From NCBI GenBank assembly GCA_024698885.1, contig JAILQQ010000250.1:1-41057 (forward strand): a stretch of 41,057 nt of DNA, in the 5' to 3' direction. A program made the translations under genes and the position numbers. This DNA comes from Lachnospiraceae bacterium. GTDB taxonomy: Bacteria; Bacillota; Clostridia; Lachnospirales; Lachnospiraceae. Within the stretch, counting starts at the first letter, position 1; each line of letters begins with the position of its first letter. The notes under the pieces were generated by a model that searched no databases, had not been told where the DNA came from, and saw only the letters and a list, made by a program, of their open reading frames with translations. Below, piece after piece: positions 239 to 41,056 of this stretch.

Positions 239-354
239 GCGCACGACTTGCGGAGCAAGTCGGCGCAGAGGAAATGATTCGGTCTGCAGGCAGCCCGAAT
301 CGGCATGAACAGGTTCATGCCTAAGCGCACGACTTGCGGAGCAAGTCGGCGCAG
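239..354 (+). repeat. Triple-hairpin repeat, copy 1 (C-A-B-C), before ftsK
   Basis: The order is: extra hairpin C at 239-266; linker AGAGGAAAT; hairpin A at 276-301 (GATTCGGTCTGC paired with GCAGCCCGAATC, one mismatch); hairpin B at 302-321 (GGCATGAA/TTCATGCC, loop CAGG); CTAA-type spacer; hairpin C at 325-352 (GCGC, bulged A, CGACTTGC, loop GGA, GCAAGTCG, GCGC). The element ends in GGCGCAG, and the ftsK ribosome-binding site AGGAAGGGGAG begins within it or directly after it. Both C hairpins in this copy are identical. Confidence 0.9.
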
Positions 355-372
355 GAAGGGGAGTATGATCAT

Positions 373-3300
373 ATGGCAAAGGGGTCCAGACGTGGCGGAG
401 CTTCCGGTGCAAGGAGGTCATCTGCCGCAAGAAGCAGTACAAAATCGACAAGTACCAGACAGAAAAGAGGACGGCAGGGCGTAAATAACGATGTTATGGA
501 TGAAGTGATCCTGTTGCTCGTCCTTACTGTTTCGGTACTTTTATTTTTGAGCGACCTGAAACTGATCGGCAGCTTCGGCAAGACGGTCAGCGGCGTGCTG
601 TTCGGTGTTTTCGGCATTGCCGCCTACGTCCTTCCTTTTGCGCTGTTCTTTTCGGCTGCTTTCCTTATTTCGAATAAAAGAATGCCGGGGGTCGGTGCCC
701 GCATCGGCGCTTATATCCTGTTAGTGCTGATCATCTGCTCCTTTGCCCATCTGATCGGCATGAAGGATTACGCGGATACGCCGCTTAAGGATTTTTACGG
801 GCTCTGCAGCGAGGGCAGAAAGGGCGGCGGCGTGGCCGGCGCGGCGGTTTCCTCGGCTCTCATTAAGGCGATCGGCCGGATCGGCGCGTATATCGTTCTG
901 ATCGTTCTGACGATCATCTGCGGCGTGATCATTACGGAGCGTTCCTTTGTCAGGGGCGTCAGGAAAGGCTCACGCACCCTTGTCGACAAATCCAGAGAGG
1001 GAGCGAAAAGACATCATGAGCACCGCGCCGTGAGACAGGAGGAATTAAGGAGCGAACGGGAGCTCAGGGAGCAGGAACGGGCCGTCAGACAGGAAGAGCT
1101 TCGGGTTGACAGAGAGCGCCGGGCTAAGGAACGGGCCGCCAGACAGGAGGAGCAGCGGCAGGAGCGTGAGCTTCGGGAAATGGAGCGCGCGATCGAGCGG
1201 GAAGAACGCAGAGAAGCCAGACGGGAAGCTGTGGCAGAGCGTGAGGAGGCCTTAAAGGAGCGGAAGCTCAGACGAAGCGAAATGAAGGTCAGCGGCGTTA
1301 TGCTGAATACAAAGCTGACCGATGAGACGGCGCTTGCGCAGACCGAGGCAGAGGATCGGAAAGAAGCGCTTGAGGAGCTGGAAAGCAGTATTGTTGCGGA
1401 AACCGCGGAAGCTGTTTTTATTTCAGAGGATATTCATGAGCTGAAGGCGGAGGATCTGCAGAATATCGAGGATATCCGGGCGTTCCGCCGGTCGGGCACC
1501 GAACAGACGGAAAAAATACCGATGGCGGAGCTGGATGCCGTGAATTTCAAATCCGTGCATCATATCAGCCTGGAGCATGTCGTTGACGGCGGTCAGAATA
1601 TGGCATACCAGGCGCCTGAAAAATCCGGAAACGAGTATAATGCTTCAAACCGTGAGGAAAAGATCGTTTCGATCAACAGGCAGAAGCCTGTCATAAATGA
1701 ACCGGAAGCGGCCTGTCCGCAGCCGGTCATAAAGATCGCATCAGTGGCGTTTCCTGACATAAAAATACCGGAGGAGCTTAAGGAGCAGGCCGGTGCGGGT
1801 ATTGAAAATACAGAAGCTGACGAAATAGATTATGCCGCGCTGTTAAAGGAAATGTCGCCGGGCGGCACAAAAACAGAGCCGGCGCCCGATCCGGAAATGA
1901 TGACGGAGCCTGAAGCGAAAACGGAGCCGCAGGCTGAACCGGAGACGGAACCGGAGCCGGAAATGAAGTCTGAGCCGGAAGTGGTAACGGAGTACGAAAC
2001 GAGAACGGAACCGGAGTCCGAGCCGGCCGTAAAGGCGCCGTACATGCGGCCTGATCCGGCACTTTTGGAGAAGCCGAAAAATAATCAGAACGGGGATTCC
2101 ATGGAAGAACTTCGCAGAACGGCCGGACGCTTACAGGAAACCCTCGCAACCTTCGGCGTGCATGTAACGATGACGGAGATCAGCCAGGGGCCTACGGTAA
2201 CCCGGTTCGAAATGCAGCCGGATGTGGGCGTTAAGGTCAGCAAGATCCTGAGCCTTTCCGATGATATCAAGCTGAATATGGCTGCTACGGACGTCAGGAT
2301 CGAGGCGCCGATCCCCGGAAAAGCGGCGGTGGGGATCGAGATCCCGAACAAAACCTCGATTCCCGTGAACTTCCGGGAGCTTGTGGAGGATCCCGCGTTT
2401 CAGAACGCTTCGTCCCATGTCTCCTTTGCCGTGGGAAAGGATATCGAGGGACGCGTGGTCGTGACGGATATCGCGAAGATGCCGCATCTTCTGATAGCCG
2501 GCGCGACGGGTTCCGGCAAGTCGGTCTGCATCAATACGCTGATCATGAGCATTCTGTTCAAGGCCGATCCGGAGGACGTGAAGCTGATCATGATCGATCC
2601 GAAGGTCGTGGAGCTTTCGGTGTATAACGGTATCCCGCATCTGATGATCCCGGTGGTGACGGATCCGAAGAAGGCGGCTGCCGCGCTGCAGTGGGGCGTG
2701 GTGGAAATGGATGACCGCTACAATAAATTCGCCGAATATAAAGTACGGGACATGAAGGGCTACAACAAGCTGGTGGAATCCGACCAGTTCAGCGATGTCC
2801 CGGAGGAGGAACGCCCCAGGAAAATGCCGCAGATCGTGATCATCGTCGATGAGCTGGCAGACCTGATGATGGTAGCCTCCAAGGAGGTGGAGGAAGCGAT
2901 CTGCCGTATTGCCCAGAAGGCCAGAGCGGCCGGCATTCATCTGGTCATCGCGACACAGCGTCCTTCCGTCGACGTGATCACCGGCCTGATCAAGGCGAAT
3001 ATGCCGAGCCGGATCGCTTTCAGCGTTTCTTCGGGTACCGACTCGAGGACCATCCTCGATATGGTGGGAGCGGAGAAGCTGCTTGGCAAGGGCGATATGC
3101 TTTTCTACCCGCAGGGCTATTCGAAGCCGGCGAGACTTCAGGGCGCTTTTATCTCGGATGACGAGGTGACGGCTGTGGTGGATTATCTGAAGGAGCAGAG
3201 CGAGGGCGCGGATTACGACCATGAGGTCATAAACCGGATGAACGCCGTAAGCGACAATGCTTCGTCAGCCGGCGCCGGGCTGACACTGTCCGGGGACAAT

Positions 3301-3528
3301 AACGGAAAGGATGAATTCTTCGAGAAGGCGGCCCGCTTTATTATCGAGAAGGATAAGGCCTCGATCGGCATGCTGCAGCGCTCGTTTAAGATCGGCTTTA
3401 ACCGGGCTGCCAGGATCATGGATCAGCTGGCCGAAGCCGGTGTTGTCGGGGAGGAGGAGGGTACCAAGCCCCGCCGGATCCTAATGAGTGAGGAGCAGTT
3501 CGATCAATACGTGGAGGAATATTTATAA
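373..3528 (+). CDS. ftsK: DNA translocase FtsK/SpoIIIE family
   Basis: ATP-driven double-stranded DNA pump of about 1051 residues that clears chromosomal DNA from the division or sporulation septum. The N-terminal 35 residues are very basic, followed by about four membrane segments (residues ~40-195). The linker contains an Arg/Glu-rich region (~205-305, with an 18-residue repeat) and a Glu/Pro-rich part (~495-550). The motor starts near residue 577, with Walker A GATGSGKS around 710-717 and Walker [12 protein letters not shown] near 820. The C-terminal ~70 residues are the DNA-reading gamma winged helix ([20 protein letters not shown]). ATG 373 is chosen because AGGAAGGGGAG lies just upstream; an in-frame ATG at 334 lies inside the upstream repeat. 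FtsK and SpoIIIE cannot be separated by sequence inspection alone. Confidence 0.96.
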
Positions 3529-3533
3529 TAACT

Positions 3534-5204
3534 ATGAAGAAGGATATTGAAATAGCGCAGGAAGCCGTTCTGCTGCCGATCAGGGAAGTGGCGGAGAGGC
3601 TCAGCATAAAAGAGGAGGAGCTTGAGCCTTACGGCAGGTATAAGGCAAAGCTGTCGGATGAGCTGCTTGAGCGGATCAAAAAGCGGGAAAACGGAAAGCT
3701 TATCCTTGTGACGGCGATCAACCCGACGCCTGCGGGGGAGGGCAAGACGACCACCAGCATCGGTCTCGCGCAGGGGCTTTCCCGTCTGCAGAAAAAAACC
3801 ATTGTAGCGCTCAGGGAGCCGTCTCTTGGTCCGTGCTTCGGCGTCAAGGGCGGCGCGGCCGGCGGCGGCTATTCGCAGGTCCTGCCGATGGAGGAGCTGA
3901 ATCTGCATTTTACCGGTGATTTTCATGCCGTGACCTCTGCCAATAATCTGCTTGCGGCGCTTCTTGACAATCATATCAAGCAGGGCAATGCCTGCCGGAT
4001 CGACCTGAACGCGGTGGTCTGGAAGCGGTGTCTGGATATGAATGACCGGGTACTCAGGAATATCGTGGTCGGACTGGGCAGCGCAAACGACGGGGTCGTC
4101 AGAGAGGATCACTTTGTGATCTCCGTAGCGTCCGAGATCATGGCCGTACTGTGTCTTGCTTCCGATCTGAAGGATCTGAAGGAAAGACTGAAACGGATCA
4201 TCGTGGCCTATGACGTGGACGGAAAGCCTGTAACGGCGGAGGATATTCAGGCAGTAGGTGCCATGACGGCGCTGCTTAAGGACGCCCTGAAGCCCAATCT
4301 GATCCAGACGATCGAACATACGCCCGCGCTTGTGCACGGCGGTCCCTTTGCCAATATCGCGCATGGCTGCAACTCCCTGATCGCGACGCGGACAGCCTTA
4401 AAGCTTTCGGATTATGTGGTCACGGAGGCGGGCTTCGGCGCGGATCTGGGGGCTGAAAAATTCTTTGATATCAAATGCCGGATCGGCGGCCTGAAACCGG
4501 ACGCAGCCGTACTGGTCGCGACGGTACGGGCCTTAAAGTATAACGGCGGCGTGAAAAAGGAAGCGCTTTCCGGGGAGAATACGGAGGCGTTAAAAAAGGG
4601 TATCGTCAATCTCGGCAAACATATTGAAAATCTGAAGCGGTACAAGGTGCCGGTCATCGTGGCGATCAACCGTTTTGAAACGGATACGGCGGCCGAGCTT
4701 TCGATCGTAGAGGAATATGTGAAAGATCAGGGAGCAGCCTTTGCTCTTTCGGAGGTTTTCGCAAAGGGCGGCGAGGGCGGTATCGCGCTGGCAAAGCAGG
4801 TGCTGTCCGTGCTCGAGAAGGAAAAAAGCGATTTTCATCCGCTTTATGAACTCTCTCTTTCCATTCGCGAGAAGATCGAAACCATCGCGAAGGAGATCTA
4901 CGGCGCGGGATCCGTGCAGTTTGGCAAGGAAGCCCTGAAGCAGCTTGCGCAGATCGAGGAGAACGGTTTTAGCGGGCTTCCGGTCTGCATGGCCAAGACC
5001 CAGTATTCGCTGTCGGACGACCCGTCGCTTCTCGGGCGGCCGGAGGGCTTTGTGCTGACGGTGAGAGAGCTTTATGTATCAGCGGGTGCGGGGTTTGTGG
5101 TGGCACTGACAGGTTCTGTGCTCACGATGCCCGGATTGCCGAAGCATCCGGCGGCTTATGATATCGATGTGGATGATTCCGGAAGGATCACAGGATTGTT
5201 TTAA
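3534..5204 (+). CDS. fhs: Formate--tetrahydrofolate ligase
   Basis: Makes 10-formyl-THF from formate, THF and ATP in the cytoplasm. It is an entry point of one-carbon units and, in acetogens, the second step of the methyl branch of the Wood-Ljungdahl pathway. At 556 residues it has the usual length. The family ATP loop [19 protein letters not shown] lies near residue 63, followed by the conserved [20 protein letters not shown] and the [10 protein letters not shown] segment. It begins 5 bases after the ftsK stop; the nearest purine-rich site (GTGGAGG) lies rather far upstream, so translation may be partly coupled. folD follows, so this is a folate one-carbon pair. Nothing is missing from the family core. 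Confidence 0.98.
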
Positions 5205-5216
5205 GGAAAAACGGCG

Positions 5217-5253
5217 GTAACTGTTCAGAAGCCAGAGGGTTCTGAACAGATAC
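5217..5253. repeat. Second hairpin repeat family, copy 1, before folD
   Basis: CTGTTCAGAA at 5221-5230 pairs perfectly with TTCTGAACAG at 5240-5249 across the loop GCCAGAGGG; flanking GTA/TAC extend the stem with one mismatch. The same 37 bases recur at 30599-30635 with only two differences. As with the triple-hairpin repeat, it is followed by GGCGCAG (5258-5264) and then the ribosome-binding site AAGGAGG of the downstream gene. There is no T-tract, so it is not an ordinary terminator. Confidence 0.85.
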
Positions 5254-5279
5254 AAACGGCGCAGATAAGGAGGATCGGG

Positions 5280-6107
5280 ATGGCTGTATTGATCGATGGG
5301 AAAGCGATCTCTTCGCAGATAAAGGACGAACTGAAGGCGTATGTGGCAGAGAAGGGGCTTTCGGATAAGCTCTGTCTCGCCGTCGTGTTGGTCGGAAGCG
5401 ACCCGGCGTCCCAGGTATATGTGAATAATAAAAAGAAGGCCTGCGAATATGTCGGGATCGGTTCGAAATCCTTCGAGCTTCCGGAAACGACGGGGGAGGA
5501 GGAGCTTCTTTCCCTGATCGACCGTCTGAACGGGGACGACAGCATTACCGGGATCCTCGTTCAGCTGCCGCTTCCGCTGCAGATCAGAGAAGACGTTGTG
5601 ATCAGACGGATCGCGCCGGAAAAAGACGTGGACGGCTTTCATCCGATGAATGTCGGGCGGCTCAGCATTGGGGAAAAGGGCTTTGTCTCCTGCACGCCGG
5701 CCGGTGTGATCGAGCTTCTGAAGCGTTCCCGGATCCCTGTGGAGGGAAAGGAATGCGTCGTGATAGGCCGCAGCAATATCGTGGGAAAACCCATGGCCAT
5801 GCTGTTACTGCGGGAGAACGGAACCGTGACGGTGGCCCATTCCAGGACAAAGGATCTGCGGGAGGTCTGCAAAAGAGCCGATATCGTGGTGGTAGCCATC
5901 GGAAAGCCGAAATTCATTAACCGGGAATATATTAAAGAGGGGGCGACAGTCATTGATGTAGGGATCCACCGGATGGAAAACGGGAAGCTCTGCGGAGACG
6001 TGGACTTTGCGGATGTGGAGTCTGTTGCGGGAGCGATCACGCCGGTTCCGGGCGGTGTCGGTCCTATGACGATCGCCATGCTGATGTCTAATTGTGTTTA
6101 TTCGTAA
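5280..6107 (+). CDS. folD: Bifunctional methylene-THF dehydrogenase / methenyl-THF cyclohydrolase
   Basis: Interconverts 5,10-methylene-THF, 5,10-methenyl-THF and 10-formyl-THF with NAD(P). It is 275 residues. The N-terminal catalytic domain carries the family Tyr-Lys region ([16 protein letters not shown], residues ~42-57) and the QLPLP motif (residue ~98). The Rossmann domain contains [17 protein letters not shown] (~161-177) and the C-terminal [17 protein letters not shown] 5280 is preceded by ATAAGGAGG. Its place after fhs supports a shared folate function. A hairpin repeat fills the 75-base gap to fhs. Confidence 0.98.
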
Positions 6108-6128
6108 GGACAGTTCAGTCTGAAATAT

Positions 6129-6216
6129 AAGGAAATGATCCAGTCAGGGAACCTGACTGGATCGGCATGAACAGGTTCATGCCTAAGCGCACGATCTGCA
6201 AAGCAGATCGGCGCAG
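6129..6216 (+). repeat. Triple-hairpin repeat, copy 2 (A-B-C)
   Basis: AAGGAAAT is followed by hairpin A at 6137-6163 (perfect 12 bp GATCCAGTCAGG/CCTGACTGGATC, loop GAA), hairpin B at 6164-6183 (loop CAGG) and hairpin C at 6187-6214 (CGATCTGC/GCAGATCG, loop AAA, closed by GCGC/GCGC with a bulged A). It ends in GGCGCAG, followed at once by TGAGGAAAAG, the apparent ribosome-binding site of the 6237 gene. The A and C arms differ from copy 1 on both sides in a pairing-preserving way. Confidence 0.92.
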
Positions 6217-6236
6217 TGAGGAAAAGCTGATAAGAT

Positions 6237-7670
6237 ATGAAGTGCCCCAAATGCGGAACGGAAATAATCGAGGGCTACCTGTATTGTCAGAACTGTGGGG
6301 AAGAGATCCGGATCGTTCCGGATTACGAACCGGAGCTGTTTGATGAGCTTTCTGAAAGCATCTCCTCTCTGGGAGAGCTTAAGGGCTTAAGCCCTTCTGA
6401 ACGGGAGCATGTTGAGCAGCTTTTTGTCACCACAAAGGAGATCAAGGCAAGACGGGACCTGACCATAGAGCAGGAACAGAAAAAAGAGAGCAGCACGAAT
6501 GTCAAGCTGGCATTGATCATCGGCGCGGGCATTTTTTTTGCTGTTCTGTTTCTGGTTGCGATCATCCGCTTTAACCGCTACTTCGATTTTGACAGGCAAT
6601 ATGCCAACGCGCTGACGCTTCATGACAAGGGACAGTACGAGAAATCCCTGTCGGTCGCGCGCCATGCGCTGAATCTCAATCAGGCAGAGGATAAGACAAA
6701 GCTGCTGATCGCGGATGATTATTATGCGCTGGATAAATATGACGAATCAAACGCCGTTCTGTTCGGGATGCTTGAAAAGGACGCGGGAAGCGACGCGGCT
6801 CTGACGATCTATGATAAGATCATTGCCAATTATAAGGCGACGAAGGATTACGCCGCTATTGTCGAGCTTTTAAATAACGCGGAATCAGACGAGCTGCGGG
6901 AACGCTACCGCATCTATTTTGCGGATGAACCAGGCTTCAGCGAAGCCTCCGGCGCCTATCCGGCGGATTTTAATCTGGTGCTTTCCTCGGACGCACCGGG
7001 ACAGATCTTCTATACCACGGACGGGAGCGAGCCCGGCGCGGATGCGCTTCTTTACGAGCAGCCGATCCATATCGGAGAGGGAGAAACCACGGTGACGGCT
7101 GTATTTGTCAACGAATACGGTATCCGGTCGGAGCCCTGTGCCCGGTTCTATTCCGTGGAATTTAAAGAAGCCGCGGCTCCGGTGTTAATGACCGAAAGCG
7201 GCAGCTATACGATCCCCCGCCTGATCACGGTAGATTTCCCCGAGAACTATTCGGTATATTACAGCGTTGACGGAGAGGACCCGACGCAGGATTCTCCGGT
7301 ATATGAGCGCCCTCTGGATATGCCGCTTGGAGCAAGCGAGCTCCGTTTCGCCGCGTGTGACAGTCATGATAACTGGTCAGAGGTGGTAACGGGAACATAT
7401 ACGCTGAATATGGAATGCTTTATCGATCTGAATACGGCGCTGGAAGCGCTCAAGATCCAGCTGATGAGCAAGGGAGAGAATTCTCTTTTGAATGAATACC
7501 GCTGCTCCTACGGATACGGGAACGGGGAAAGCAGCTTTTACCTGATCGACGAGTATGCTTACTCCGGGTCCGAGACCGGCCGGCGTTTCATGGTGGATAC
7601 AAAGACCGGCGCGATGTTTGAGGCCAAATGGAATAACAGTAAACAGGATTATGAAACGGTTGCATTTTAG
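6237..7670 (+). CDS. Zinc-ribbon membrane protein with TPR-like and chitobiase C-terminal-type domains
   Basis: No known individual function is recognised. The 477 residues begin with a double-CxxC zinc ribbon (CPKCGTEI...CQNCGEEI, residues 3-23). An acidic cytoplasmic linker follows, then one membrane segment (LALIIGAGIFFAVLFLVAII, ~85-104). Helical TPR-like repeats (~115-220) and two beta-sandwich modules of the CHB_HEX_C type (each with a YYTTDGS/YYSVDGEDPT-like loop, ~240-305 and ~315-385) come next, and a short C-terminal domain rich in Tyr/Gly. The topology suggests an extracytoplasmic sensor or scaffold with a cytoplasmic zinc ribbon. The start is supported by TGAGGAAAAG. Repeat elements flank it on both sides, suggesting a single-gene unit. 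Confidence 0.8.
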   Translation: MKCPKCGTEIIEGYLYCQNCGEEIRIVPDYEPELFDELSESISSLGELKGLSPSEREHVEQLFVTTKEIKARRDLTIEQEQKKESSTNVKLALIIGAGIFFAVLFLVAIIRFNRYFDFDRQYANALTLHDKGQYEKSLSVARHALNLNQAEDKTKLLIADDYYALDKYDESNAVLFGMLEKDAGSDAALTIYDKIIANYKATKDYAAIVELLNNAESDELRERYRIYFADEPGFSEASGAYPADFNLVLSSDAPGQIFYTTDGSEPGADALLYEQPIHIGEGETTVTAVFVNEYGIRSEPCARFYSVEFKEAAAPVLMTESGSYTIPRLITVDFPENYSVYYSVDGEDPTQDSPVYERPLDMPLGASELRFAACDSHDNWSEVVTGTYTLNMECFIDLNTALEALKIQLMSKGENSLLNEYRCSYGYGNGESSFYLIDEYAYSGSETGRRFMVDTKTGAMFEAKWNNSKQDYETVAF

Positions 7671-7699
7671 CTGATAATTCATTATATTTTAGTGTGTAT

Positions 7700-7821
7700 G
7701 CGCACGACTTGCAAGGCAAGTCGGCGCAAAAAAGGAAATGATCCGGTTCAAAAAACGAACCGGATCGGCATGAACGGAAGTTCATGCCTAAGCGCACGAC
7801 TTGCAAGGCAAGTCGGCGCAG
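7700..7821 (+). repeat. Triple-hairpin repeat, copy 3 (C-A-B-C), before nfnA
   Basis: Extra hairpin C at 7700-7727; linker AAAAAAGGAAAT; hairpin A at 7740-7766 (GATCCGGTTC/GAACCGGATC with a 7-base A-rich loop); hairpin B at 7767-7788 (9 bp, GGAA tetraloop); hairpin C at 7792-7819 (CGACTTGC/GCAAGTCG, loop AAG). Both C hairpins are identical, as in copy 1. The element ends in GGCGCAG and is followed directly by AGAAGGAGG, the ribosome-binding site of nfnA. Confidence 0.92.
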
Positions 7822-7837
7822 AGAAGGAGGAAATCGA

Positions 7838-10581
<2,744 letters not shown>

Positions 10582-16739: not shown

Positions 16740-17660
16740 ATGCAGCATATTACGGAAATACTAGGAACAATTCTGCCGGTGGTGCTGATGCTTTTGATCG
16801 GCGTTCTGGCCAGACGCACGTCACTGCTCTCAAGAGAGGGGATCGGCGCGTTAAAAAGCGTGGTGGTCAACATTACGCTGCCGGCGGTGATGCTTAATGC
16901 TTTTGCTACCATGACGTATTCGGCCAAAAACATCATTATTACGCTGATGATGTTCCTTGTCTGTCTTGCGGCATGGTTTCTGGGACGGTTTTTTTCGAAG
17001 GGCTCCCGGTTTATCCCTTTTTTGACAACGGGCTTTGAAGCCGGCATGCTGGGATATTCCCTGTTCATGCTGCTCTACGGGAGTGAGCGGATCTCGGAAT
17101 TTGCCGCGATCGATCTCGGGCAGGTGCTGTTTGTTTTTACGCTGTACAAGATTTTTCTGGGACTTGACGGAAATGAGAAGCCGAAGGCTTCGCAGCTAAT
17201 TTCCGAAATGATACATTCGCCGACGATCATCGCGATCCTTATCGGCGTACTGCTTGGCGCGACCGGGCTTTACCGTCTGATGGAGCCGGGCGGGTTAAGC
17301 GGACTCCTCGACGCCTGCACGGATTTTGTGAGCGCCCCCACCGGCGCGGTGATCCTTTTAACGATCGGCTATGATCTGAGCTTTGAGCATATCCCCTGGA
17401 AGCTGGTTTTAAAAACGCTGGCCGCGAGGGTGCTTATCATGCTTGCGCTGAGGCTGGCCGCAGGCGGTATCGTTTCCGCAATCGGCATGGGAGCGGAGCT
17501 TAACGGTGCGTTGAACATCATGTTCATCCTGCCGCCGCCCTATGTCCTGCCGGTCTTTGCGGATGACGAATCTCAGAGGAATTTTGTCTCGTCTGCCCTG
17601 TCTATGATGACCGTGGTGACGATTTTCTGCTTTATCATACTGACCGCGGTGCTAAGGTAA
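16740..17660 (+). CDS. AEC-family transporter (auxin efflux carrier-like permease)
   Basis: Membrane permease of 306 residues with around nine to ten hydrophobic segments. The characteristic early motif is VLMLLIGVLARRTSLLSREG, then LPAVMLNAFA and the glycine-rich ILIGVLLGATGLYRL. Family members carry small organic acids such as malate; the substrate here is unknown. GGGAGG lies 7-10 bases before ATG 16740. ATCGGCGCAG, identical to the 3' end of the intergenic repeat, stands at 16698-16707 just after the preceding stop. It ends the long co-directional block and converges on the kinase operon. Confidence 0.88.
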   Translation: MQHITEILGTILPVVLMLLIGVLARRTSLLSREGIGALKSVVVNITLPAVMLNAFATMTYSAKNIIITLMMFLVCLAAWFLGRFFSKGSRFIPFLTTGFEAGMLGYSLFMLLYGSERISEFAAIDLGQVLFVFTLYKIFLGLDGNEKPKASQLISEMIHSPTIIAILIGVLLGATGLYRLMEPGGLSGLLDACTDFVSAPTGAVILLTIGYDLSFEHIPWKLVLKTLAARVLIMLALRLAAGGIVSAIGMGAELNGALNIMFILPPPYVLPVFADDESQRNFVSSALSMMTVVTIFCFIILTAVLR

Positions 17661-17681
17661 TATCCGGCACAACTATCGTAA

Positions 17682-17799
17682 GCGCATGGTTTGCGTGCAG
17701 ACCGGCGCAGAAGGAAATGATCCGGTCTGAAAAGCAGACCGGATCGGCATGAACAGGTTCATGCCTAAGCGCACGATCTGACAAGTCAGACCGGCGCAG
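17682..17799 (+). repeat. Triple-hairpin repeat, copy 4 (C-A-B-C), between convergent genes
   Basis: A divergent extra hairpin C at 17682-17708 (pairs kept by G-T wobbles) precedes hairpin A at 17719-17745 (perfect 11 bp GATCCGGTCTG/CAGACCGGATC), hairpin B at 17746-17765 (loop CAGG) and hairpin C at 17769-17797 (CGATCTGAC/GTCAGACCG, one mismatch). Unlike the other copies it has no downstream gene on its own strand: it runs into the 3' end of the histidine kinase gene on the minus strand and supplies that gene's last codons and stop. Confidence 0.9.
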
Positions 17800-20523: not shown

Positions 20524-20537
20524 AACTATTACGTGCA

Positions 20538-20592
20538 CCGGTCTGAAAAACAGGCCGGATCAGCCTGAACAGGTTCACGGCTGAGCGCATAT
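20538..20592 (+). repeat. Triple-hairpin repeat, copy 5 (decayed A-B), before proB
   Basis: Hairpin A is CCGGTCTG/CAGGCCGG (20538-20558, one G-T wobble). Hairpin B at 20562-20582 has AGCC in place of GGCA on the left arm and GGCT in place of TGCC on the right, so pairing is kept with one bulge. Hairpin C is broken (GAGCGCATATTGCAG). The proB ribosome-binding site AAAGGA follows. This is the most diverged copy still showing structure. Confidence 0.7.
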
Positions 20593-20616
20593 TGCAGCCA
20601 GAAAGGATTTTATAAT

Positions 20617-23518: not shown

Positions 23519-24780
23519 GTAAGATGACGATGACACAGAAAATTCTGGCGGCACACGCGGGTTTGCCCGAGGTAAGCGCGGGACAGCTGATCGAGGCGGC
23601 GCTTGATCTGGTCCTCGGGAATGATATCACGACGCCGGTGGCGATCCGCGAGATGGAAAAGATCGACCGGAAAGAGGTTTTTGACCGCGATAAGATCGCG
23701 CTTGTGATGGATCACTTTATTCCGAACAAGGATATCAAATCCGCGGAAAACTGCAAATGTGTCAGACAGTTTGCGATAAAACATGAGATCAGCCATTATT
23801 ATGATGTGGGCGAAATGGGCATCGAGCATGCCCTGCTGCCGGAGCAGGGCCTTACGGTGGCGGGAGACGTGATCATCGGCGCCGATTCCCATACCTGTAC
23901 CTACGGAGCGCTTGGGGCATTTTCCACCGGTGTCGGCAGTACGGACATGGCTGCGGGCATGGCGACCGGAAAAGCCTGGTTCAAGGTTCCCGCCGCGATC
24001 CGCTTTATTCTTACGGGAAAGCCCGCCCCCTTTATCAGCGGCAAGGATATCATCCTGCATATCATCGGCATGATCGGCGTGGACGGTGCGTTATATCAAT
24101 CCATGGAGTTTAGCGGTGACGGCATACAGTATCTGTCCATGGATGACCGCTTTACGATCGCCAATATGGCCATTGAAGCGGGCGGAAAAAACGGTATATT
24201 CCCGGTGGACGAAAAGGCGAAGGCCTATATGGAGGAACACGGCAGGCGGCCTTACACGATCTATGAGGCGGATGCGGACGCGGAGTATACGGCTTCCTAT
24301 ACGATCGATCTTGCTTCCCTGAAGCCGACGGTGGCTTTCCCGCATCTGCCCGAGAATACCAGGACGGTTGACGAGATCGGAGAGAAGATCGCCGTGGATC
24401 AGGCCGTGATCGGCTCCTGCACGAACGGAAGACTTGAGGATCTGCGCATTGCCGCTTCGATCTTAAAAGGAAAAAAGGTAAAGAAGGGACTCAGACTGAT
24501 CATTATTCCGGCGACACAGCAGATCTATCTGCAGGCCATGGAGGAGGGTCTTTTAAAAACCTTTATCGAAGCGGGCGGAGTGGTCTCCACGCCTACCTGT
24601 GGTCCCTGCCTCGGCGGTTATATGGGGATCCTGGCGGCAGGGGAAAGATGCATTTCCACCACAAATCGCAATTTTGTCGGCCGGATGGGGCATGTGGATT
24701 CCGAGGTTTATCTGGCAAGCCCGGCGGTGGCGGCAGCCAGTGCGGTCGCCGGCTATATCACAGGACCGGACGCAATATGA
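23515..24780 (+). CDS. leuC: 3-isopropylmalate dehydratase large subunit
   Basis: Large subunit of the aconitase-family enzyme that isomerises 2- to 3-isopropylmalate in leucine synthesis; 421 residues, the short clostridial/archaeal type. The [4Fe-4S] ligands are the Cys in GSCTNGR (~residue 301) and the two in PTCGPCLGG (~360). [21 protein letters not shown] is the conserved substrate region. ATG 23515 overlaps the miaB stop and is preceded by GAGAGGAGAG. leuD follows after an unusually long 210-base gap filled by three repeat units. Homoaconitase-type specificity cannot be excluded from sequence alone. Confidence 0.95.
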
Positions 24781-24975
24781 AATGATTCGATTTGCTGACG
24801 CAAATCGGCGCAGAAAAAAGAAATGATTCAGTCAGGGAACCTGCCTGAATCGGTATGAACAGGTTCATGCCCAGGCGCAGAAAAGAGGAAATGATCCAGT
24901 CAGGGAACCTGACTGGATCGGCATGAACTGAAGTTCATGCCTAAGCGCACGATCTGCTCACGCAGATCGGCGCAG
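24781..24975 (+). repeat. Triple-hairpin repeat, copies 6a-6c in tandem between leuC and leuD
   Basis: 6a (24781-24813) fuses the AAATGATTC left edge of module A directly to a C hairpin (CGATTTGC/GCAAATCG). 6b (24820-24880) has hairpin A at 24825-24851 (one mismatch) and hairpin B at 24852-24871 (one G-T), but module C is reduced to AGGCGCAG. 6c (24881-24975) is intact: A at 24893-24919 (identical stem to copy 2), B at 24920-24941 (9 bp, TGAA loop), C at 24945-24973 (CGATCTGC/GCAGATCG). The AAAAGGAGAG ribosome-binding site of leuD follows. Confidence 0.92.
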
Positions 24976-28251: not shown

Positions 28252-28318
28252 AATGATACGGTCTGATGACGAAAACGATCCGGTCCGCAAACGGACTGAA
28301 TCGGCATGAACAGATATG
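28252..28318 (+). repeat. Triple-hairpin repeat, copy 7 (truncated A-B)
   Basis: AAATGATACGGTCTG begins like a module A, then a second left arm at 28277 forms GATCCGGTCCG/CGGACTGAATC (28277-28302, one mismatch, one wobble). Module B stops after GGCATGAACAG and runs into the terminator stem. Module C is missing. Confidence 0.7.
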
Positions 28319-28362
28319 CGGCGGTGTGCTTTCCGGAAAGATCCGGAGCACACCGCCGTTTT
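28319..28362 (+). terminator. Rho-independent terminator after the 5'-nucleotidase gene
   Basis: A long GC-rich stem (GGCGGTGTGCT...AGCACACCGCC, continued by CCGG/CCGG, 28319-28358) is followed by GTTTTG. It separates the nucleotidase gene from ruvA. Confidence 0.9.
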
Positions 28363-28609: not shown

Positions 28610-28698
28610 CTGCGCCGATTTGCTTTGCAAATCGTGCGCTTCGGCATGATCTTCAGATCATGCCGATTCGGTCCGTCCTTTGGACCGAATCAATTCAT
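28610..28698 (-). repeat. Triple-hairpin repeat, copy 8 (inverted), in the ruvA leader
   Basis: Read on the minus strand it is A-B-C: A is GATTCGGTCC/GGACCGAATC (28691-28665), B is GGCATGATC-TGAA-GATCATGCC read as 9 bp (28664-28643), C is CGATTTGC-AAA-GCAAATCG with GCGC ends (28639-28612). The minus-strand 3' end is GGCGCAG at 28616-28610. It is the only inverted copy. Module B differs from the usual AAC/GTT by matched changes on both arms to ATC/GAT. Confidence 0.92.
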
Positions 28699-29337: not shown

Positions 29338-29424
29338 AGGAAATGATTCGGTCAGGGAACCTGACCGAATCGGCATGAACAGGTTCATGCCTAAGCGCAC
29401 GATTTTCAAAGAAAATCGGCGCAG
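29338..29424 (+). repeat. Triple-hairpin repeat, copy 9 (A-B-C), between ruvA and ruvB
   Basis: AGGAAAT starts one base after the ruvA stop. Hairpin A at 29345-29371 (perfect 12 bp GATTCGGTCAGG/CCTGACCGAATC, loop GAA), hairpin B at 29372-29391 (loop CAGG), hairpin C at 29395-29422 (CGATTTTC/GAAAATCG, loop AAA). It ends in GGCGCAG, then AAGTTGGAGGG, the ruvB ribosome-binding site. The copy fills the whole ruvA-ruvB gap. Confidence 0.92.
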
Positions 29425-30465: not shown

Positions 30466-30541
30466 ACTCGACGTAAGAGTAAGAAAACGAAAACTGTTGT
30501 GGACAGCCTGAAGCACTTGTTGCTGAGGGCGTACCAAAATG

Positions 30542-30598
30542 TGGGTTTTGCGATGCGGCCCGTCCTTTTGCGAAGCAAAACCTACAATGACGGGTCGC
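30542..30598 (+). promoter_or_regulatory. Candidate pseudoknot / switching leader RNA upstream of zapA
   Basis: S1: TGGGTTTTGC (30542-30551) pairs with GCAAAACCTA (30575-30584). S2: GCGGCCCGTC (30555-30564) pairs with GACGGGTCGC (30589-30598, one G-T). The arms interleave, giving an H-type pseudoknot topology. A local hairpin TTTTGC-GAA-GCAAAA (30566-30580) would compete with S1 while remaining compatible with S2. I do not recognise a known riboswitch class. Confidence 0.5.
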
Positions 30599-30635
30599 GT
30601 ATCTGTTCAGAAGCCAGAGGATTCTGAACAGATAC
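30599..30635. repeat. Second hairpin repeat family, copy 2, before zapA
   Basis: GTATCTGTTCAGAA (30599-30612) and TTCTGAACAGATAC (30622-30635) form a perfect 14 bp stem around GCCAGAGGA. It differs from the copy at 5217-5253 at only two of 37 positions. It lies at the end of the leader, 27 bases before the zapA start. Confidence 0.85.
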
Positions 30636-30662
30636 AGAACAGTTGAGGACGAGGTGGGACGC

Positions 30663-31025: not shown

Positions 31026-31061
31026 AGGAGAGGGGCTGTCGCTGACGGCTCCTTGTTTTTT
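31025..31061 (+). terminator. Rho-independent terminator after zapA, abutting the U32 gene start
   Basis: AAGGAG (31025-31030) pairs with CTCCTT (31049-31054) and the inner CTGTC pairs with GACGG around GCT; GTTTTTT follows. The stem's left arm is also the only AAGGAG near the following start codon at 31065. Confidence 0.75.
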
Positions 31062-31064
31062 GCC

Positions 31065-33344
31065 ATGACAGATCATCATTTTAAGGAAAAAACGATCCCG
31101 GAGCTTCTGGCCCCCGCCGGCAATATGGGCTGCCTGAAGGCGGCATTATCCGCAGGAGCGGATGCCGTTTACCTTGGCGGAAAACGTTTCGGTGCCAGGG
31201 CCTATGCCGGAAATTTTGAGAAAGAGGAGCTCCTTCAGGCGCTGGATACGGCGCACCTTTTAGGGAGAAAGATCTATCTGACCCTGAATACGCTTCTGAA
31301 GGACAACGAGCTCTCGGAGGTGCCGGCGTATGTGGCCCCGTTTTATGAGCAGGGCCTTGACGGCATCATCACGCAGGATCTCGGCGTCGCGGATCTTTTA
31401 CGGCAGAGCTTTCCCGCGCTTCCGATCCATGCCAGCACGCAGATGTCGATCACGGCGCCGGAGGGAGCTCTGTTTTTAAAGGAACGGGGCTTTACCCGGA
31501 TCGTTCCGGCCAGGGAGCTTTCGCTTTCTGAACTTATCCGGATGAAGGAGGAAAGCGGGCTTGCGTTAGAATGCTTTATTCACGGAGCGCTTTGCTATTC
31601 CTATTCGGGGAAGTGCCTTTTTTCATCGTTACTCGGCGGCAGAAGCGGAAACAGAGGACGCTGCGCCGGTCCCTGCCGTCTGCCCTATCAGGGGAAATAC
31701 TACCTGAGCGCGAAGGATATCTGCTGCTTTGATATCCTGAAGGAGCTGATGGAAGCCGGCATTGATTCCTTTAAGATCGAAGGCCGCATGAAGACAGAGG
31801 AATATGTGGCAGGCGTCACGGGTCTATATAGAAGGCAGATCGACCGGATCTTACAGGGCGGCGGGGAAGACCGGGAGGCGGCGAGAGACCGGGAGAGGCT
31901 GCTTTCTCTGTATACCCGCAGCGGCCATTCCCGGGGCTATTATTTTACGCGAAACGGCAGCGATATGATCAGCCTTTCAAGTCCCTCCTATGAAAGCGGG
32001 GACGAAGCGCAAAAGGCTGCGTTATTGAAAGAATTCACAGAGGTTCCGCCCAAATGCCTGATCACCGGTGAGATCACGCTGCGGGAAGGGGAACCTTCGA
32101 GACTTACTTTACGGCCTTACGATCCTTCGGCTTTCCCGGAAGCGGATACGGAAATAAGCGTTACGGGCGCCATACCGCAGAAGGCGGTCAATCAGGCCCT
32201 GACGACTGAAACGGTAAAAAAACAGATATTGAAATGCGGGAATACCTCCTTTGTTTTTTCAGAGCTTACGGTATCGCTCGGACAGGAACTGTTTATGACG
32301 GCCGGTGCCCTGAATCAGCTGAGACGCGATGGGCTAAGAGAGCTGGAGGCTTCTTTGCTCAGGCCTTTCAGACGAAAGCTGCCAGAGAGCGATGTCGCTT
32401 TTGCGCCAGTTCAATCTGCCCGCAGACCGGATCATTTCCCCTCTTCAGATCTGTCTGTCCCGTCCTCTGATCATGGTGAGGATGCGCCCGGATTTCATAT
32501 AGTACTGCCTGATTTACGGGCACTTGAGATTGTTCTGCCAAAAAAGGGCGTTTACCTGATAACAGTCCCCTGTACGGCCTTTTCGACGATGCAGGAGCTG
32601 GCTCAGACGGCGGAGGCGGTTCACCTGGCGGGGAAAAAGCTGCTTCTTTCGCTTCCTGCCGTGTTCAGGTCCTCTGAAGCAGACCGGAACGGGTTAAATA
32701 AACTTATGTCTGAGCACGCGACCGGCGGAGACGTCCTGTGCGGTGAGGAAATGCTCCGGTCCGGAGAGGCTCTGACGCTTGCCGATGGGGTCCTGATCGA
32801 TAACCTGGAAGAACTGTACTACATAAAGGACATTAAATATGATAAGCTTGTCATAGCGGACCTGCATCTTTATGCCATGAATCAACGGGCGGTATCCGTA
32901 CTGATGAGGGCGTTGCCGCAGGGCGTCGTGACCACTGTGCCGGTCGAACTCAATCAGAAGGAACTGCTTGCCCGCAGCGTCACCGGAGAGGATATGATGC
33001 TCTATGGATACCTGCCGATGATGATCTCGGCCCAGTGCGTCCACGGCACGATGCAGGGCTGTGATCATAAGCCGGGACTTCTTTACCTGAAAGACCGCTA
33101 CGGCAATGATCTGCCCTGTATGAATCATTGCAGGACCTGCACGAATATCATTTACAACAGCGTACCGCTCTGCCTGACGGTCCGGGATACGGTCAGACTG
33201 AAACCGCGGTTTTTACGGCTCAGTTTTACGGTAGAGGAGCCGGCCGAAATAGATGACATAATAGAATATTATGTAAACGAAAAACCGATGCCGGCCAGGC
33301 TTCAAAAACATACAAAAGGGCATTTCAACCGGGGGGTCGAGTAA
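31065..33344 (+). CDS. U32-family peptidase-like protein, RlhA/DUF3656 type
   Basis: Protein of about 759 residues. The U32 core opens with IPELLAPAGNMGCLKAALSAGADAVYLGG and has the signature ECFIHGALCYSYSGKCLFSS (near 170). A cysteine group follows (RCAGPCRLPY), then DSFKIEGRMKTEEYVAG. The middle region is DUF3656-like. The C-terminal part has more Cys/His pairs (CVHGTMQGC, CMNHCRTCTNI) that may bind an Fe-S cluster. Relatives include E. coli RlhA, which hydroxylates 23S rRNA C2501, so RNA hydroxylation is a plausible role besides peptidase. ATG 31065 lies four bases after a terminator T-run and has no free ribosome-binding site; TTG 31053 is an alternative. Confidence 0.88.
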   Translation: MTDHHFKEKTIPELLAPAGNMGCLKAALSAGADAVYLGGKRFGARAYAGNFEKEELLQALDTAHLLGRKIYLTLNTLLKDNELSEVPAYVAPFYEQGLDGIITQDLGVADLLRQSFPALPIHASTQMSITAPEGALFLKERGFTRIVPARELSLSELIRMKEESGLALECFIHGALCYSYSGKCLFSSLLGGRSGNRGRCAGPCRLPYQGKYYLSAKDICCFDILKELMEAGIDSFKIEGRMKTEEYVAGVTGLYRRQIDRILQGGGEDREAARDRERLLSLYTRSGHSRGYYFTRNGSDMISLSSPSYESGDEAQKAALLKEFTEVPPKCLITGEITLREGEPSRLTLRPYDPSAFPEADTEISVTGAIPQKAVNQALTTETVKKQILKCGNTSFVFSELTVSLGQELFMTAGALNQLRRDGLRELEASLLRPFRRKLPESDVAFAPVQSARRPDHFPSSDLSVPSSDHGEDAPGFHIVLPDLRALEIVLPKKGVYLITVPCTAFSTMQELAQTAEAVHLAGKKLLLSLPAVFRSSEADRNGLNKLMSEHATGGDVLCGEEMLRSGEALTLADGVLIDNLEELYYIKDIKYDKLVIADLHLYAMNQRAVSVLMRALPQGVVTTVPVELNQKELLARSVTGEDMMLYGYLPMMISAQCVHGTMQGCDHKPGLLYLKDRYGNDLPCMNHCRTCTNIIYNSVPLCLTVRDTVRLKPRFLRLSFTVEEPAEIDDIIEYYVNEKPMPARLQKHTKGHFNRGVE

Positions 33345-36093: not shown

Positions 36094-36109
36094 GGAAACA
36101 GGAACCTTC

Positions 36110-36138: not shown

Positions 36139-36144
36139 ATAGAT

Positions 36145-36471: not shown

Positions 36472-36477
36472 CATAAT

Positions 36478-37449
36478 ATGCTGAGTATTGTATTGACGGT
36501 CTTACGTATAACGGGGATTGTTCTGCTTTGTATCCTGGTACTGATCCTTCTGCTTGCGCTTGCGATCCTCTTTATTCCGGTCCGTTACCGGGGAGAGGGA
36601 CAGATCGATGCGGGGAAGGGGATCCTTACGGCAGATGCTGTTGCTTCCTGGTTTTTTCATATTCTGACGCTTCGGATGCATTATGACGGGAAGGCGGAGA
36701 TCAGTCTTTTGCTGTTTGGCTTCCCGGTGCGCAGGAGGAAAAAGAAAAGACGGAAATCGAGACGACGGGGGAAAAAGAGGAGACGATCCGGTCATGCGGG
36801 AAAAGGACACAGGGAGGTGGCGAGCCGACCGGAATCCGCTTCGCAAAAAGAAGAAGAGCCTGCTTACAAGCTTGAAACCTATGAGGATCTTTACCCGGAA
36901 GAGGCAACGTCTCAAAAGGAGCCCTCGCAAAACGCTGCGGCGGAAGACGCTTCTTTGGAGGATAGCGAAGAAAAGAAGAATATCTTTGAGAAGCTTGCGG
37001 AATTCTTCGGAAAGCTTGCGGATTTTTTCCGTCACTTTAAAGAGAAGCTTGCAAATGCGGAAAAAAAGCTTATGGCGGTTTACGACAACGCCGCGTTTTA
37101 TATTTCCTTTTTCTCGGATGAGGAAAATCAGGCGCAGCTGTCGCATCTGTATAAACAGCTTACCAGGCTCCTTAAGCATATCAAACCGAAACGCTTCCGG
37201 CTCTTTATTCATTTCGGTTTTGAACAGCCGGATATGACGGGAAAGCTCTTAGGGCTTTTAGCGATCGCCTATCCCTTCTTCGGCGGAGGGCTTCAGGCAG
37301 AGCCGGATTTTGAGAATAGCGTTTTTGACATGTCGCTGTTTATGAAGGGCAGAGCGACGGTATTTACGGTATTGTGGATCGCGTTCAGGATTTATTACCA
37401 TAAGGGTTTCCGGGAGATGCGCGACACGTTTAGAAATAAAACAAGATGA
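36478..37449 (+). CDS. DUF2953 (YtfI-like) membrane protein
   Basis: A 323-residue protein with one N-terminal membrane segment (VLRITGIVLLCILVLILLLALAILFIPV). A domain starts with RYRGEGQIDAGKGILTADAVASWFFHILTLRM; a very basic patch (RRKKKRRKSRRRGKKRRR) and an acidic low-complexity region follow. The C-terminal part has HFGFEQPDMTGKLLGLLAIAYPFFGGG. In Bacillus the DUF2953 gene ytfI precedes ytfJ/gerW, the same order as here, which supports the call. The role is unknown; a link to sporulation or germination is inferred from the partner. Confidence 0.85.
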   Translation: MLSIVLTVLRITGIVLLCILVLILLLALAILFIPVRYRGEGQIDAGKGILTADAVASWFFHILTLRMHYDGKAEISLLLFGFPVRRRKKKRRKSRRRGKKRRRSGHAGKGHREVASRPESASQKEEEPAYKLETYEDLYPEEATSQKEPSQNAAAEDASLEDSEEKKNIFEKLAEFFGKLADFFRHFKEKLANAEKKLMAVYDNAAFYISFFSDEENQAQLSHLYKQLTRLLKHIKPKRFRLFIHFGFEQPDMTGKLLGLLAIAYPFFGGGLQAEPDFENSVFDMSLFMKGRATVFTVLWIAFRIYYHKGFREMRDTFRNKTR

Positions 37450-37480
37450 GGAAATGAACGATCAGGGAAAGCCTGAACAG
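37448..37480 (+). repeat. Remnant of the triple-hairpin repeat before gerW
   Basis: GAGGAAATGA, the constant left edge of module A, is followed by TCAGG-GAAAG-CCTGA. Modules B and C are gone. The gerW ribosome-binding site AGGAGG follows directly, as in intact copies. Confidence 0.5.
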
Positions 37481-37490
37481 GAGGAAGAAC

Positions 37491-37898: not shown

Positions 37899-37918
37899 TT
37901 TGTTAACATAATTTCTTC

Positions 37919-37947
37919 TTGACATAGAAATTTCTGTGTTATAAGAT
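37919..37947 (+). promoter_or_regulatory. Sigma-A type promoter for the J-domain gene
   Basis: TTGACA at 37919-37924 and TAAGAT at 37942-37947 with a 17-base spacer. The predicted start near 37954 leaves a leader of about 180 bases. Confidence 0.8.
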
Positions 37948-37953
37948 ACTATG

Positions 37954-38132
37954 TGTGGGCCTTGCGAAGGGGAATCGCAGCCTGCGGGTGGTTAAGCTTT
38001 CAGGCTTTTCTGCCGATATATACTTTGAGGGTTGAGTATGGATATGGCCATTGCGGCGAGGGGAAACGGTCCGACTGCTTCGGCAGATCGAATCGGCAAA
38101 GCCGGCGGGTCATAACGAATAAGGGGTGAGTT
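37954..38132 (+). ncRNA. Structured leader of unknown class upstream of the J-domain gene
   Basis: A GC-rich leader with several possible stems: TGCG/CGCA near 37963-37979; AGCCTG (37979-37984) with CAGGCT (38001-38006) followed by TTTTC, which resembles a weak attenuator; GCCGATAT...ATATGGC around 38012-38048; and a CTGC-TTCG-GCAG tetraloop hairpin near 38076-38087. GGGGTGAG precedes ATG 38133. I tested it by eye against common riboswitches and found no convincing match. It may also be an independent small RNA. Confidence 0.45.
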
Positions 38133-38690: not shown

Positions 38691-38706
38691 AAAAGGAAAA
38701 CCAATG

Positions 38707-38733
38707 GGAGCGGCAAAGAAGCCGCTCCTTTTT
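38707..38733 (+). terminator. Rho-independent terminator after the J-domain gene
   Basis: GGAGCGGC (38707-38714), loop AAAGAA, GCCGCTCC (38721-38728), then TTTTT. Confidence 0.92.
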
Positions 38734-38741
38734 CGATTGAC

Positions 38742-38771
38742 TTGACAAGCGCTGTCGTCAGGCGATAAGAT
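38742..38771 (+). promoter_or_regulatory. Sigma-A type promoter for the antiporter gene
   Basis: TTGACA at 38742-38747 and TAAGAT at 38766-38771 with an 18-base spacer. The -10 is the same hexamer as in the J-domain promoter. The leader to ATG 38803 is short and carries AAAGGAG. Confidence 0.75.
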
Positions 38772-38802
38772 AAATTCAATATCTAAAGGAGCATAAAGTC
38801 AT

Positions 38803-40083: not shown

Positions 40084-40090
40084 AACGGCT

Positions 40091-40930
40091 ATGGTCAGGG
40101 TTAAAACAGTATGTCTTTTTATCAGGCAGTATGAAGGGGAAACAGAAGAAGAGGTCAGGAAACACCTGAATGGGCTGGGCTGTACCTGCTTTTATGAGCT
40201 GGGTGCTCTTGCAGAGATGCCTGCGGAAATGATCGTCTCTGCCTTTGCCTTTACCGACGATCGTGCGGCAGCGGATGCGCTTTCGGAAAAAGGGATCGGC
40301 TTTGCGGTATATGATAACGAATACGGCAGGGCGCAGCTGTTTCCCGACGCGCTTTACCGTGTTGAGCGGCTTTGCACGCTGGAGAAAAAAAGGATCGACC
40401 GGATGCTTTGCCGGTATCTTGGCCTTCCCTGGGATATTTTGGAGACGGAGCGCTGTCTGATCCGGGAGCTTCGGGAAGAGGATGTGGATGATCTGTACGG
40501 TCTCTATCTGCCGGAGGATTATTTCCTCGAGGACGAGCCTCTCTATCGGGACAGGGAAAGAGAGCGCGCCTATACCAGAGACTATATCCGGTATCAGTAC
40601 CGCTTTTTCGAATACGGCCTGTGGGCGGTCATTGAAAAGGAAACGGGGCGGCTGATCGGACGGGCCGGCTTAAGCAACCGGCCGGGTTATGACGATCCGG
40701 AGCTTGGCTATGGATTTGCGCCGGATCACAGACGGATGGGCTTTGCTTCTGAAGTCTGTCTCGCCATTTTGTATTATGCGGCGCAGGAGCTTTCCCGGGA
40801 GGCCGTTAATGCTTTTACGAGGAAGGAAAACGAGGCCAGCGTAAGGCTTCTTGAAAAGCTCGGGTTTTATTTTGTCCGCACGGTGCTTCTGGACGGCCAG
40901 GCGTTTGATCATTATCGCAAAATTTTATAA
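40091..40930 (+). CDS. GNAT family N-acetyltransferase with unusual N-terminal domain
   Basis: A 279-residue protein. The C-terminal ~165 residues form a RimJ/RimL-type GNAT domain: LETERCLIRELREEDVDDLYGLYL opens it, RLIGRAGLSN and ELGYGFAPDHRRMGFASEVC give the acetyl-CoA site (R-x-x-G-x-A variant RRMGFA), and KENEASVRLLEKLGFYFV closes it. The N-terminal ~115 residues (VKTVCLFIRQYEGETEEEVRKHL...) look like a small alpha/beta domain that I cannot assign. The substrate is unknown. It is probably cotranscribed with the antiporter. Confidence 0.85.
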   Translation: MVRVKTVCLFIRQYEGETEEEVRKHLNGLGCTCFYELGALAEMPAEMIVSAFAFTDDRAAADALSEKGIGFAVYDNEYGRAQLFPDALYRVERLCTLEKKRIDRMLCRYLGLPWDILETERCLIRELREEDVDDLYGLYLPEDYFLEDEPLYRDRERERAYTRDYIRYQYRFFEYGLWAVIEKETGRLIGRAGLSNRPGYDDPELGYGFAPDHRRMGFASEVCLAILYYAAQELSREAVNAFTRKENEASVRLLEKLGFYFVRTVLLDGQAFDHYRKIL

Positions 40931-40934
40931 AACT

Positions 40935-41056
40935 GTGCACGACTACCAGAGCAAGTCGGCGCAGAAAGAGGAAATGATCCGGTCTGTGAACAGACCGGAT
41001 CGGCATGAACTGAAGTTTATGCCTAAGCGCACGACTTGCAAAGCAAGTCGGCGCAG
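40935..41056 (+). repeat. Triple-hairpin repeat, copy 10 (C-A-B-C) at the window end
   Basis: A decayed extra hairpin C (40935-40962, left arm GACTACC no longer matching fully) is followed by hairpin A at 40976-41001 (12 bp GATCCGGTCTGT/ACAGACCGGATC), hairpin B at 41002-41023 (9 bp with one G-T, TGAA loop) and hairpin C at 41027-41054 (CGACTTGC/GCAAGTCG, loop AAA). It ends in GGCGCAG, one base before the window end, so the gene it precedes is not visible. Confidence 0.9.

Follow-up and report, generated by a model that had tools for sequence, protein, structure and literature searches.

A three-hairpin interspersed repeat in Lachnospiraceae genomes and its placement 5' of Shine-Dalgarno sequences

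What is the short, hairpin-rich sequence that recurs between the genes of a 41,057-nt contig of a Lachnospiraceae bacterium (JAILQQ010000250.1, assembly GCA_024698885.1), and what accounts for its positions? We call this whole stretch the window and its source genome G000. An earlier note, made from the letters of the window, had described about ten scattered copies of a three-hairpin repeat. The family of interspersed repeats is real, and its main regularity, new relative to that note, is placement directly 5' of Shine-Dalgarno (SD) sequences. We think it probable that this is a mobile repeat resembling miniature inverted-repeat transposable elements (MITEs) and repetitive extragenic palindromes (REPs), without terminal inverted repeats (TIRs), a clear target-site duplication (TSD) or a known enzyme, and that it inserts at RAGGAR motifs, which are mostly ribosome-binding sites.

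The unit, its distribution and its placement

The repeat unit is about 88 nt long and consists of AGGAAAT, hairpin A, hairpin B, TAA, hairpin C and AG, in that order; hairpin C is made of GCGC, a bulged A, a variable stem and a second GCGC. A covariance model built from eight window copies and an alignment of 113 units from the carrier genomes G000, G019, G024, G061 and G062 agree with the layout first proposed (AGGAAAT, A, B, spacer, C with a bulged A). Across these 113 units from five genomes the bulged A is invariant, while GGAAATGAT, the TAA and the GCGC ends are nearly so. The consensus has AAAT directly 5' of hairpin A, nothing 5' of hairpin B and TAA 5' of hairpin C.

Copies extend beyond the window, as the family interpretation anticipated: G000 (3.71 Mb in 266 contigs) contains at least 151 model matches, a lower bound (150 candidates were scored), and 180 exact hairpin-C patterns against 0 of the reversed pattern. 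The density of one copy per 4 kb given in the earlier note holds for the window, but genome-wide it falls to about one intact copy per 25 kb over 3.71 Mb. Several G000 contigs end within units (L053:1-140, L054:1-39, L062:19190-19241 and L068:10376-10426), so the assembly is probably broken up by the repeats, and the copy counts are probably underestimates. Two contig ends of this metagenome-assembled genome (MAG) have 452 bases in common at 94%.

Among 61 genomes, 37 of the genus and 24 from other families of the order, the only carriers were G000, G019 (63 matches) and G024 (8). A broader model made from the 113 units again matched three of the 37 genus genomes, with a count of 85 in G019 at E <= 0.01; diverged copies may partly escape these searches, in which 72 candidates were scored (119 with the broader model). 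In a sample of 299 genomes of the family (298 genera), the broader model matched G000 and none of the other 298, under stricter filters and with 14 candidates scored per genome, so that diverged copies may escape. An exact stretch of the unit also matches the Lachnospiraceae MAGs RUI134 and RUI154, our genomes G061 and G062, which are 67-72% identical to the window over matches of at least 400 bases. The carrier genomes are incomplete MAGs (85-98%).

We analysed placement in 21 sources of G000 totalling 370 kb (369,630 bases, a tenth of the genome). Of 143 model matches we kept the 76 units scoring at least 77.9 bits and dropped the remainder, which were partial copies or opposite-strand echoes. 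These units form 64 arrays (52 single, 12 double): six at the edges of stretches, one inside a called gene and 57 in gaps between genes. The gaps are codirectional in 39 cases, divergent in nine and convergent in nine, and in the codirectional ones 37 arrays are sense and two antisense (gene starts were called by a simple script rather than a gene finder, and some are wrong by eye).

In 42 of the 64 G000 arrays an SD-type core (AGGA, GGAG, GAGG, AGGG or GGGA) has its first base at position 1-4 past the right edge; the count is 37 of 57 once arrays followed by a further unit-like edge are excluded. Within 14 nt of the right edge a core occurs in 45/64 arrays, compared with a fraction of 0.22 for random 14-mers; the figures for G019 are 15/24 and 0.28. 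A start codon together with an SD-like triplet lies 8-25 nt downstream of 39 of 62 G000 arrays, against 1 of 61 when read antisense and a fraction of 0.133 at random intergenic positions. In G019 a start codon is found at this distance for 13/23 arrays and for 0/23 antisense. The orientation follows from the motif itself: of the 101 RAGGAR motifs in codirectional gaps free of units, 91 are sense, which makes 37 sense arrays out of 39 unsurprising (P = 0.24). This strand bias suffices to explain how units are oriented, and an RNA step is not needed.

Copies in the window and the same sites in relatives

Eight intact copies, scoring 95.8-107.9 bits, and several partial ones confirm the family in the window. 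The model was built from these eight copies, so their scores are no independent test; the hairpin-C pattern occurs nine times in the window and in none of 100 shuffles. Weak partial matches (24.5-34.2 bits) lie at 193-268, 7651-7729, 17655-17710, 20528-20597 and 28270-28353. The copies and possible remnants are as follows.

239-268, plus strand: hairpin C of a 5'-truncated unit, first in a C-ABC array (pattern; partial match of 34.2 bits)
269-354, plus strand: intact unit 5' of an FtsK/SpoIIIE-family gene starting at about 373 (95.8 bits)
5205-5264, plus strand: possible remnant before folD, with a AAGGAAAA edge and a GGCGCAG edge (no covariance-model match)
6130-6216, plus strand: intact unit between folD and a zinc-ribbon gene, empty in 28 relatives (model)
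7700-7729, plus strand: hairpin C of a truncated unit (pattern and model)
7733-7821, plus strand: intact unit 16 nt 5' of the called start of a gene with DHOD-B Fe-S and NAD-binding domains (model)
17682-17710, plus strand: hairpin C of a truncated unit (model and pattern)
17712-17799, plus strand: intact unit in a convergent gap (model)
20528-20597, plus strand: decayed A-B copy (26.4 bits)
24779-24813, plus strand: mini copy with left edge, single hairpin and right edge (pattern)
24818-24880, plus strand: A-B copy without hairpin C (52 bits)
24886-24975, plus strand: intact unit 12 nt 5' of the called start of an aconitase-C-domain gene (model)
28270-28353, plus strand: weak match, decayed copy (25.6 bits)
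28610-28698, minus strand: intact unit, antisense to both adjoining called genes (model)
29338-29424, plus strand: intact unit between ruvA and ruvB, empty in 29 relatives (model)
37448-37480, plus strand: possible remnant with a AGGAAATGA edge and a short hairpin (no model match)
40935-41056, plus strand: array of a diverged C hairpin (40935-40966) and an intact unit (40969-41056) (model)

The remnant at 37448-37480 had already been proposed; its edge and small hairpin are present, but it has no model match at E <= 0.01 and is unproven. The unit at 17712-17799 overlaps the 3' end of a minus-strand open reading frame (ORF; 17786-19087) by 14 nt.

The hairpin sequences C-A-B-C at 239, 7700, 17682 and 40935 each read as a full unit preceded by a truncated one. 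A strict pattern scan of the 370 kb found eight mini copies, each a single hairpin flanked by both edges. It also found 12 copies without the left part, of which one is interrupted by the end of its contig; a looser scan added further orphan ends, many of which are chance matches. Such forms bear on a spread through an RNA copy, in which the right end would be fixed near the SD sequence and the left end often truncated, as in target-primed reverse transcription. The constant right edge, the 5' truncations, which fall in B or where C begins, and the sense orientation would all agree with it. We nevertheless find this route very improbable: there are just 12 truncated copies in 370 kb, seven of them directly 5' of a full unit, where later deletion explains the truncation, and the motif bias accounts for orientation. 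The C hairpins are identical within the array at 239-354, and likewise within that at 7700-7821, but differ between the two arrays; within each array they could pair mutually as one long stem. A sequence resembling a mini unit also lies at about 32400-32439, on the minus strand, where it is part of the U32 peptidase ORF 31053-33344; the repeat may therefore contribute codons to proteins.

The same sites in related genomes are mostly empty. A match was obtained in 35 other genomes; ruvA and ruvB adjoin with no unit between them in all 29 of these relatives that were examined, and the gap downstream of folD has no unit in 28/28 scorable relatives (29 fetched). In all the fetched ruvA-ruvB and folD loci the hairpin-C pattern was found only in G000's own loci and in contig L141 of G019. 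Alignments further show G061 without a unit at the sites matching window positions 24886 and 29338, and G019 is empty at the site of L070:15919. In the ruvA-ruvB gap of G061 (L195) there is a hairpin-rich sequence of another kind, several hundred bases long and internally repeated.

Two gaps are exceptions. The one before an enoyl-CoA hydratase family gene is filled in both G000 (L066:5667) and G019 (L152:4588), with arms that differ between the two units yet pair in each. The gap between the formate-tetrahydrofolate ligase gene fhs and folD has a C-only copy in G019 (L141:1455), directly 5' of the SD sequence on a contig that ends in folD. In the G000 window this same gap has the possible remnant at 5205-5264, between whose edges lies a short form of a second repeat (5217-5254). 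Occupancy is thus mostly, not solely, lineage-specific at the sites examined.

Pairing of the hairpin arms

The arms covary strongly. In the 113 units 97.6% of 3605 pair cells are paired, both sides vary in 26 of the 32 pairs, and there are 440 double changes. Pair changes in a folded RNA pass through G·U. The mismatches of the unit arms comprise 27 G·U and 57 A·C among the 3605 cells, or 27 and 43 when one pair position is left out, unlike acceptor stems in the genus, where 57 tRNAs gave 26 G·U and 0 A·C in 399 cells. This control was drawn from 30 loci of the best-scoring tRNAs (82 found, 58 distinct and of fitting length, one left out for poor stem pairing). We set aside the T-stem counts (30 G·U, 4 A·C, 52 other, 199 Watson-Crick), in which the many other cells suggest misregister. 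The excess of A·C over G·U suggests that the constraint on the arms is probably at the DNA level. Covariation by itself is no proof of RNA function, and comparing G·U with A·C against a tRNA control helps to separate DNA-level from RNA-level covariation.

These counts weigh on the idea that the repeat is a functional cis-acting RNA, whose hairpins 5' of the SD sequence influence mRNA stability, coupling or the initiation of translation, this function being the reason why copies are kept. Sense orientation, location 5' of the SD sequence, strong covariation, the conserved purine-rich loops of hairpin B and the gap filled in G000 and G019 with different but paired arms all speak for it. We consider it unlikely since G·U is not favoured over A·C as it is in tRNA acceptor stems, both sites examined genus-wide are empty in relatives with the same gene pair, and the RAGGAR strand bias accounts for orientation. 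It also lacks an Rfam match: no family matched the whole window at the gathering score, and at E <= 5, in the region 5100-8000, the one weak match (6477-6554) lay outside the repeats.

The opposite strand raises another possibility. The earlier note had seen no T-tract and set simple terminators aside; this holds on the given strand, but on the other one six of the eight intact window copies have terminator-like matches (6137-6163, 7740-7766, 17719-17745, 24893-24919, 29345-29371 and 40976-41001), among the top of both lists of such matches. Hairpin A followed by ATTTCCT on that strand might stop antisense transcription into operons, and read from there G·U exceeds A·C (57:27). That the repeat exists for this purpose is hardly credible, however: a CC breaks the tail, C-only forms have no hairpin A, and the G·U excess drops to 43:27 without one pair, far off the tRNA pattern of 26:0.

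How, then, would pairing be kept in DNA? Template-switch copying between arms would yield double changes in one step (the part of PMC8794818 used here). Loops in the rarer orientation are scarce, at 8/109 for A, 0/113 for B and 9/112 for C, which gives little direct support to such copying; an enzyme that recognises the folded single strand would fit too. The B loops are one-sided (TGAA 41, AG 34, their reverse complements 0; n = 113).

Proposed movement, machinery and likeness to known repeats

With regard to tandem duplication, adjacent units resemble each other more than they resemble units of other stretches, most of all in hairpin A (0.92 against 0.76, with 0.91 against 0.87 for B and 0.89 against 0.84 for C; 12 adjacent pairs). 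The ends of the unit are not inverted repeats of each other: in the 113-unit alignment the left end is AGGAAATGAT and the right end GGCGCAG, whose reverse complement CTGCGCCGAT differs from the left, so a TIR is absent. The AGGA that recurs 3' of the right edge resembles the left edge.

We searched for the enzyme by several routes. The Y1_Tnp domain had 0 matches in the incomplete MAGs G000, G019 and G024 and is present in 18 of the 37 genus genomes. IS110 transposases scored above the cut-off in these three carriers and also in G010, G034 and G002, where no repeat was found; being present in carriers and non-carriers alike, IS110 is not discriminating as a mover. Neither orphan ends nor a self-comparison of the 369,630 G000 bases (repeats of at least 200 bases) led to a parental element with an ORF, and the self-comparison yielded just an overlap between contig ends and a single pair of repeat arrays.

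Could the repeat be an ordinary REP-type element whose RAYT/Y1 transposase was lost or lies in missing sequence? REPs and the bacterial interspersed mosaic elements (BIMEs) built from them, moved by RAYT (TnpA-REP), are likewise short intergenic hairpins, some bulged, with many copies and clusters (in part from PMC6006769). Bulged hairpins, intergenic location, high copy number and tandem clusters agree with this origin, as do the occurrence of Y1_Tnp elsewhere in the genus and the incompleteness of the carriers. Against it, the three carriers tested have no Y1_Tnp, and the repeat has three different hairpins in fixed order, mostly 5' of SD sequences, a placement that is not among the rules for REPs in the part of PMC6006769 used here. 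The same part of that source gives GTAG or GTGG 0-2 nt 5' of the hairpin as a rule; neither stands 5' of the hairpins in the 113-unit consensus. We judge an ordinary REP origin distinctly unlikely. The repeat lacks tested defining features of both REPs and MITEs, though it works most like these.

Other known systems share some of its traits. BOX elements of Streptococcus pneumoniae have a modular A-B-C build with a variable number of modules, fold if transcribed and number 125 in one genome, but they have TIRs and target duplications, and the portion of PMC3049150 drawn on here mentions no SD targeting for them; we set BOX apart on these traits. Bacterial MITEs (Nezha, RUP, Correia elements) are also small, non-coding and base-paired (in part from PMC3049150), whereas our repeat has no TIR, no clear TSD, strongly directional placement and no parent insertion sequence in the 369,630 G000 bases. 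TAACTGA direct repeats of Beggiatoaceae lie mostly just 5' of start codons, in forward orientation and patchily across genomes (169 sets in one genome, mechanism not known, according to the part of PMC4679880 used); the repeat described here differs as an 88-nt structured unit 5' of an intact SD sequence. The earlier note knew of no named family with this three-part layout, and neither Rfam nor the titles of the open-access literature searched contain one, so the family is seemingly undescribed as far as that literature goes. One copy compared with phage, plasmid and E. coli collections gave no match, and the hairpin-C pattern was not found in viral contigs.

The reading we prefer is thus that the repeat is non-coding, high-copy DNA broadly of the REP/MITE kind, mobile now or until recently, with a chain of one to three hairpins between its ends. 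We infer that it would insert at RAGGAR-type DNA motifs in a single orientation relative to the motif. G000 is compact, and between its codirectional genes such motifs are mostly found on the coding strand, many of them as SD sequences; copies would consequently land in 5' leaders and operon gaps, sense and directly 5' of the SD sequence. Spread within a lineage would be due to a trans-acting enzyme, probably one recognising folded single-stranded DNA, and arm complementarity may be kept through hairpin recognition, through copying one arm from the other by template switching, or through the two together. Where copies are transcribed, a probable side effect would be a change in the operon mRNA, in its processing, stability or coupling.

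Several observations weigh against this reading. A search for TSDs was unconvincing (z = 3.6 for the best of 180 combinations of offset and length), and the searches for Y1_Tnp, IS110 and a parental element linked no transposase to the repeat. Gaps shared by G000 and G019 could mean old, retained elements, and the nearest relatives found are 75-79% identical in ruvB, so there is no clean pair of sites before and after insertion. The one-sided B loops suggest strand-specific recognition and oppose frequent loop inversion by template switching. Placement is also not uniform: 19 of the 64 G000 arrays, including seven of the nine in convergent gaps, lack an SD core within 14 nt of the right edge; spacing is looser in G019 (core at 1-4 in 7/24 arrays, at 5-10 in 8/24); and in G024 a start codon lies 8-25 nt downstream in just 3/8, with 1/8 antisense. 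Finally, plain AGGA is sense in 193 of 232 cases, which leaves a slight sense excess of units (P = 0.03).

A bolder version of the mobile-repeat reading is possible, if doubtful: a new class of small mobile repeat that targets the ribosome-binding site, its folded single-stranded units moved to AGGA motifs by a dedicated, undescribed enzyme. If this were true, structured leaders would have been loaded onto dozens to more than 100 genes per genome, and bacterial leaders rewired by one parasite; if still active, such an enzyme would insert directionally, at a short purine target. Repeats 5' of SD sequences offer a natural experiment on leader structure, with similar hairpins before dozens of genes and empty-site relatives as controls.

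The second repeat, whose short form sits inside the possible remnant before folD, is about 147 bp long, begins with (GT)AACTGTTC, ends with CTGAACAGATAC and has imperfect inverted ends. We take it to resemble an IS66-type MITE. Its copies are the following.

30492-30638 of the window: second repeat
L055:2772-2918: second repeat
L062:3185-3328: second repeat
L002:4019-4163: second repeat
L203:1489-1634: second repeat
5217-5254 of the window: second repeat, short form

The window copy is 90-92% identical to two copies in G062, and direct repeats of about 8 bases are present at L062 and L203.

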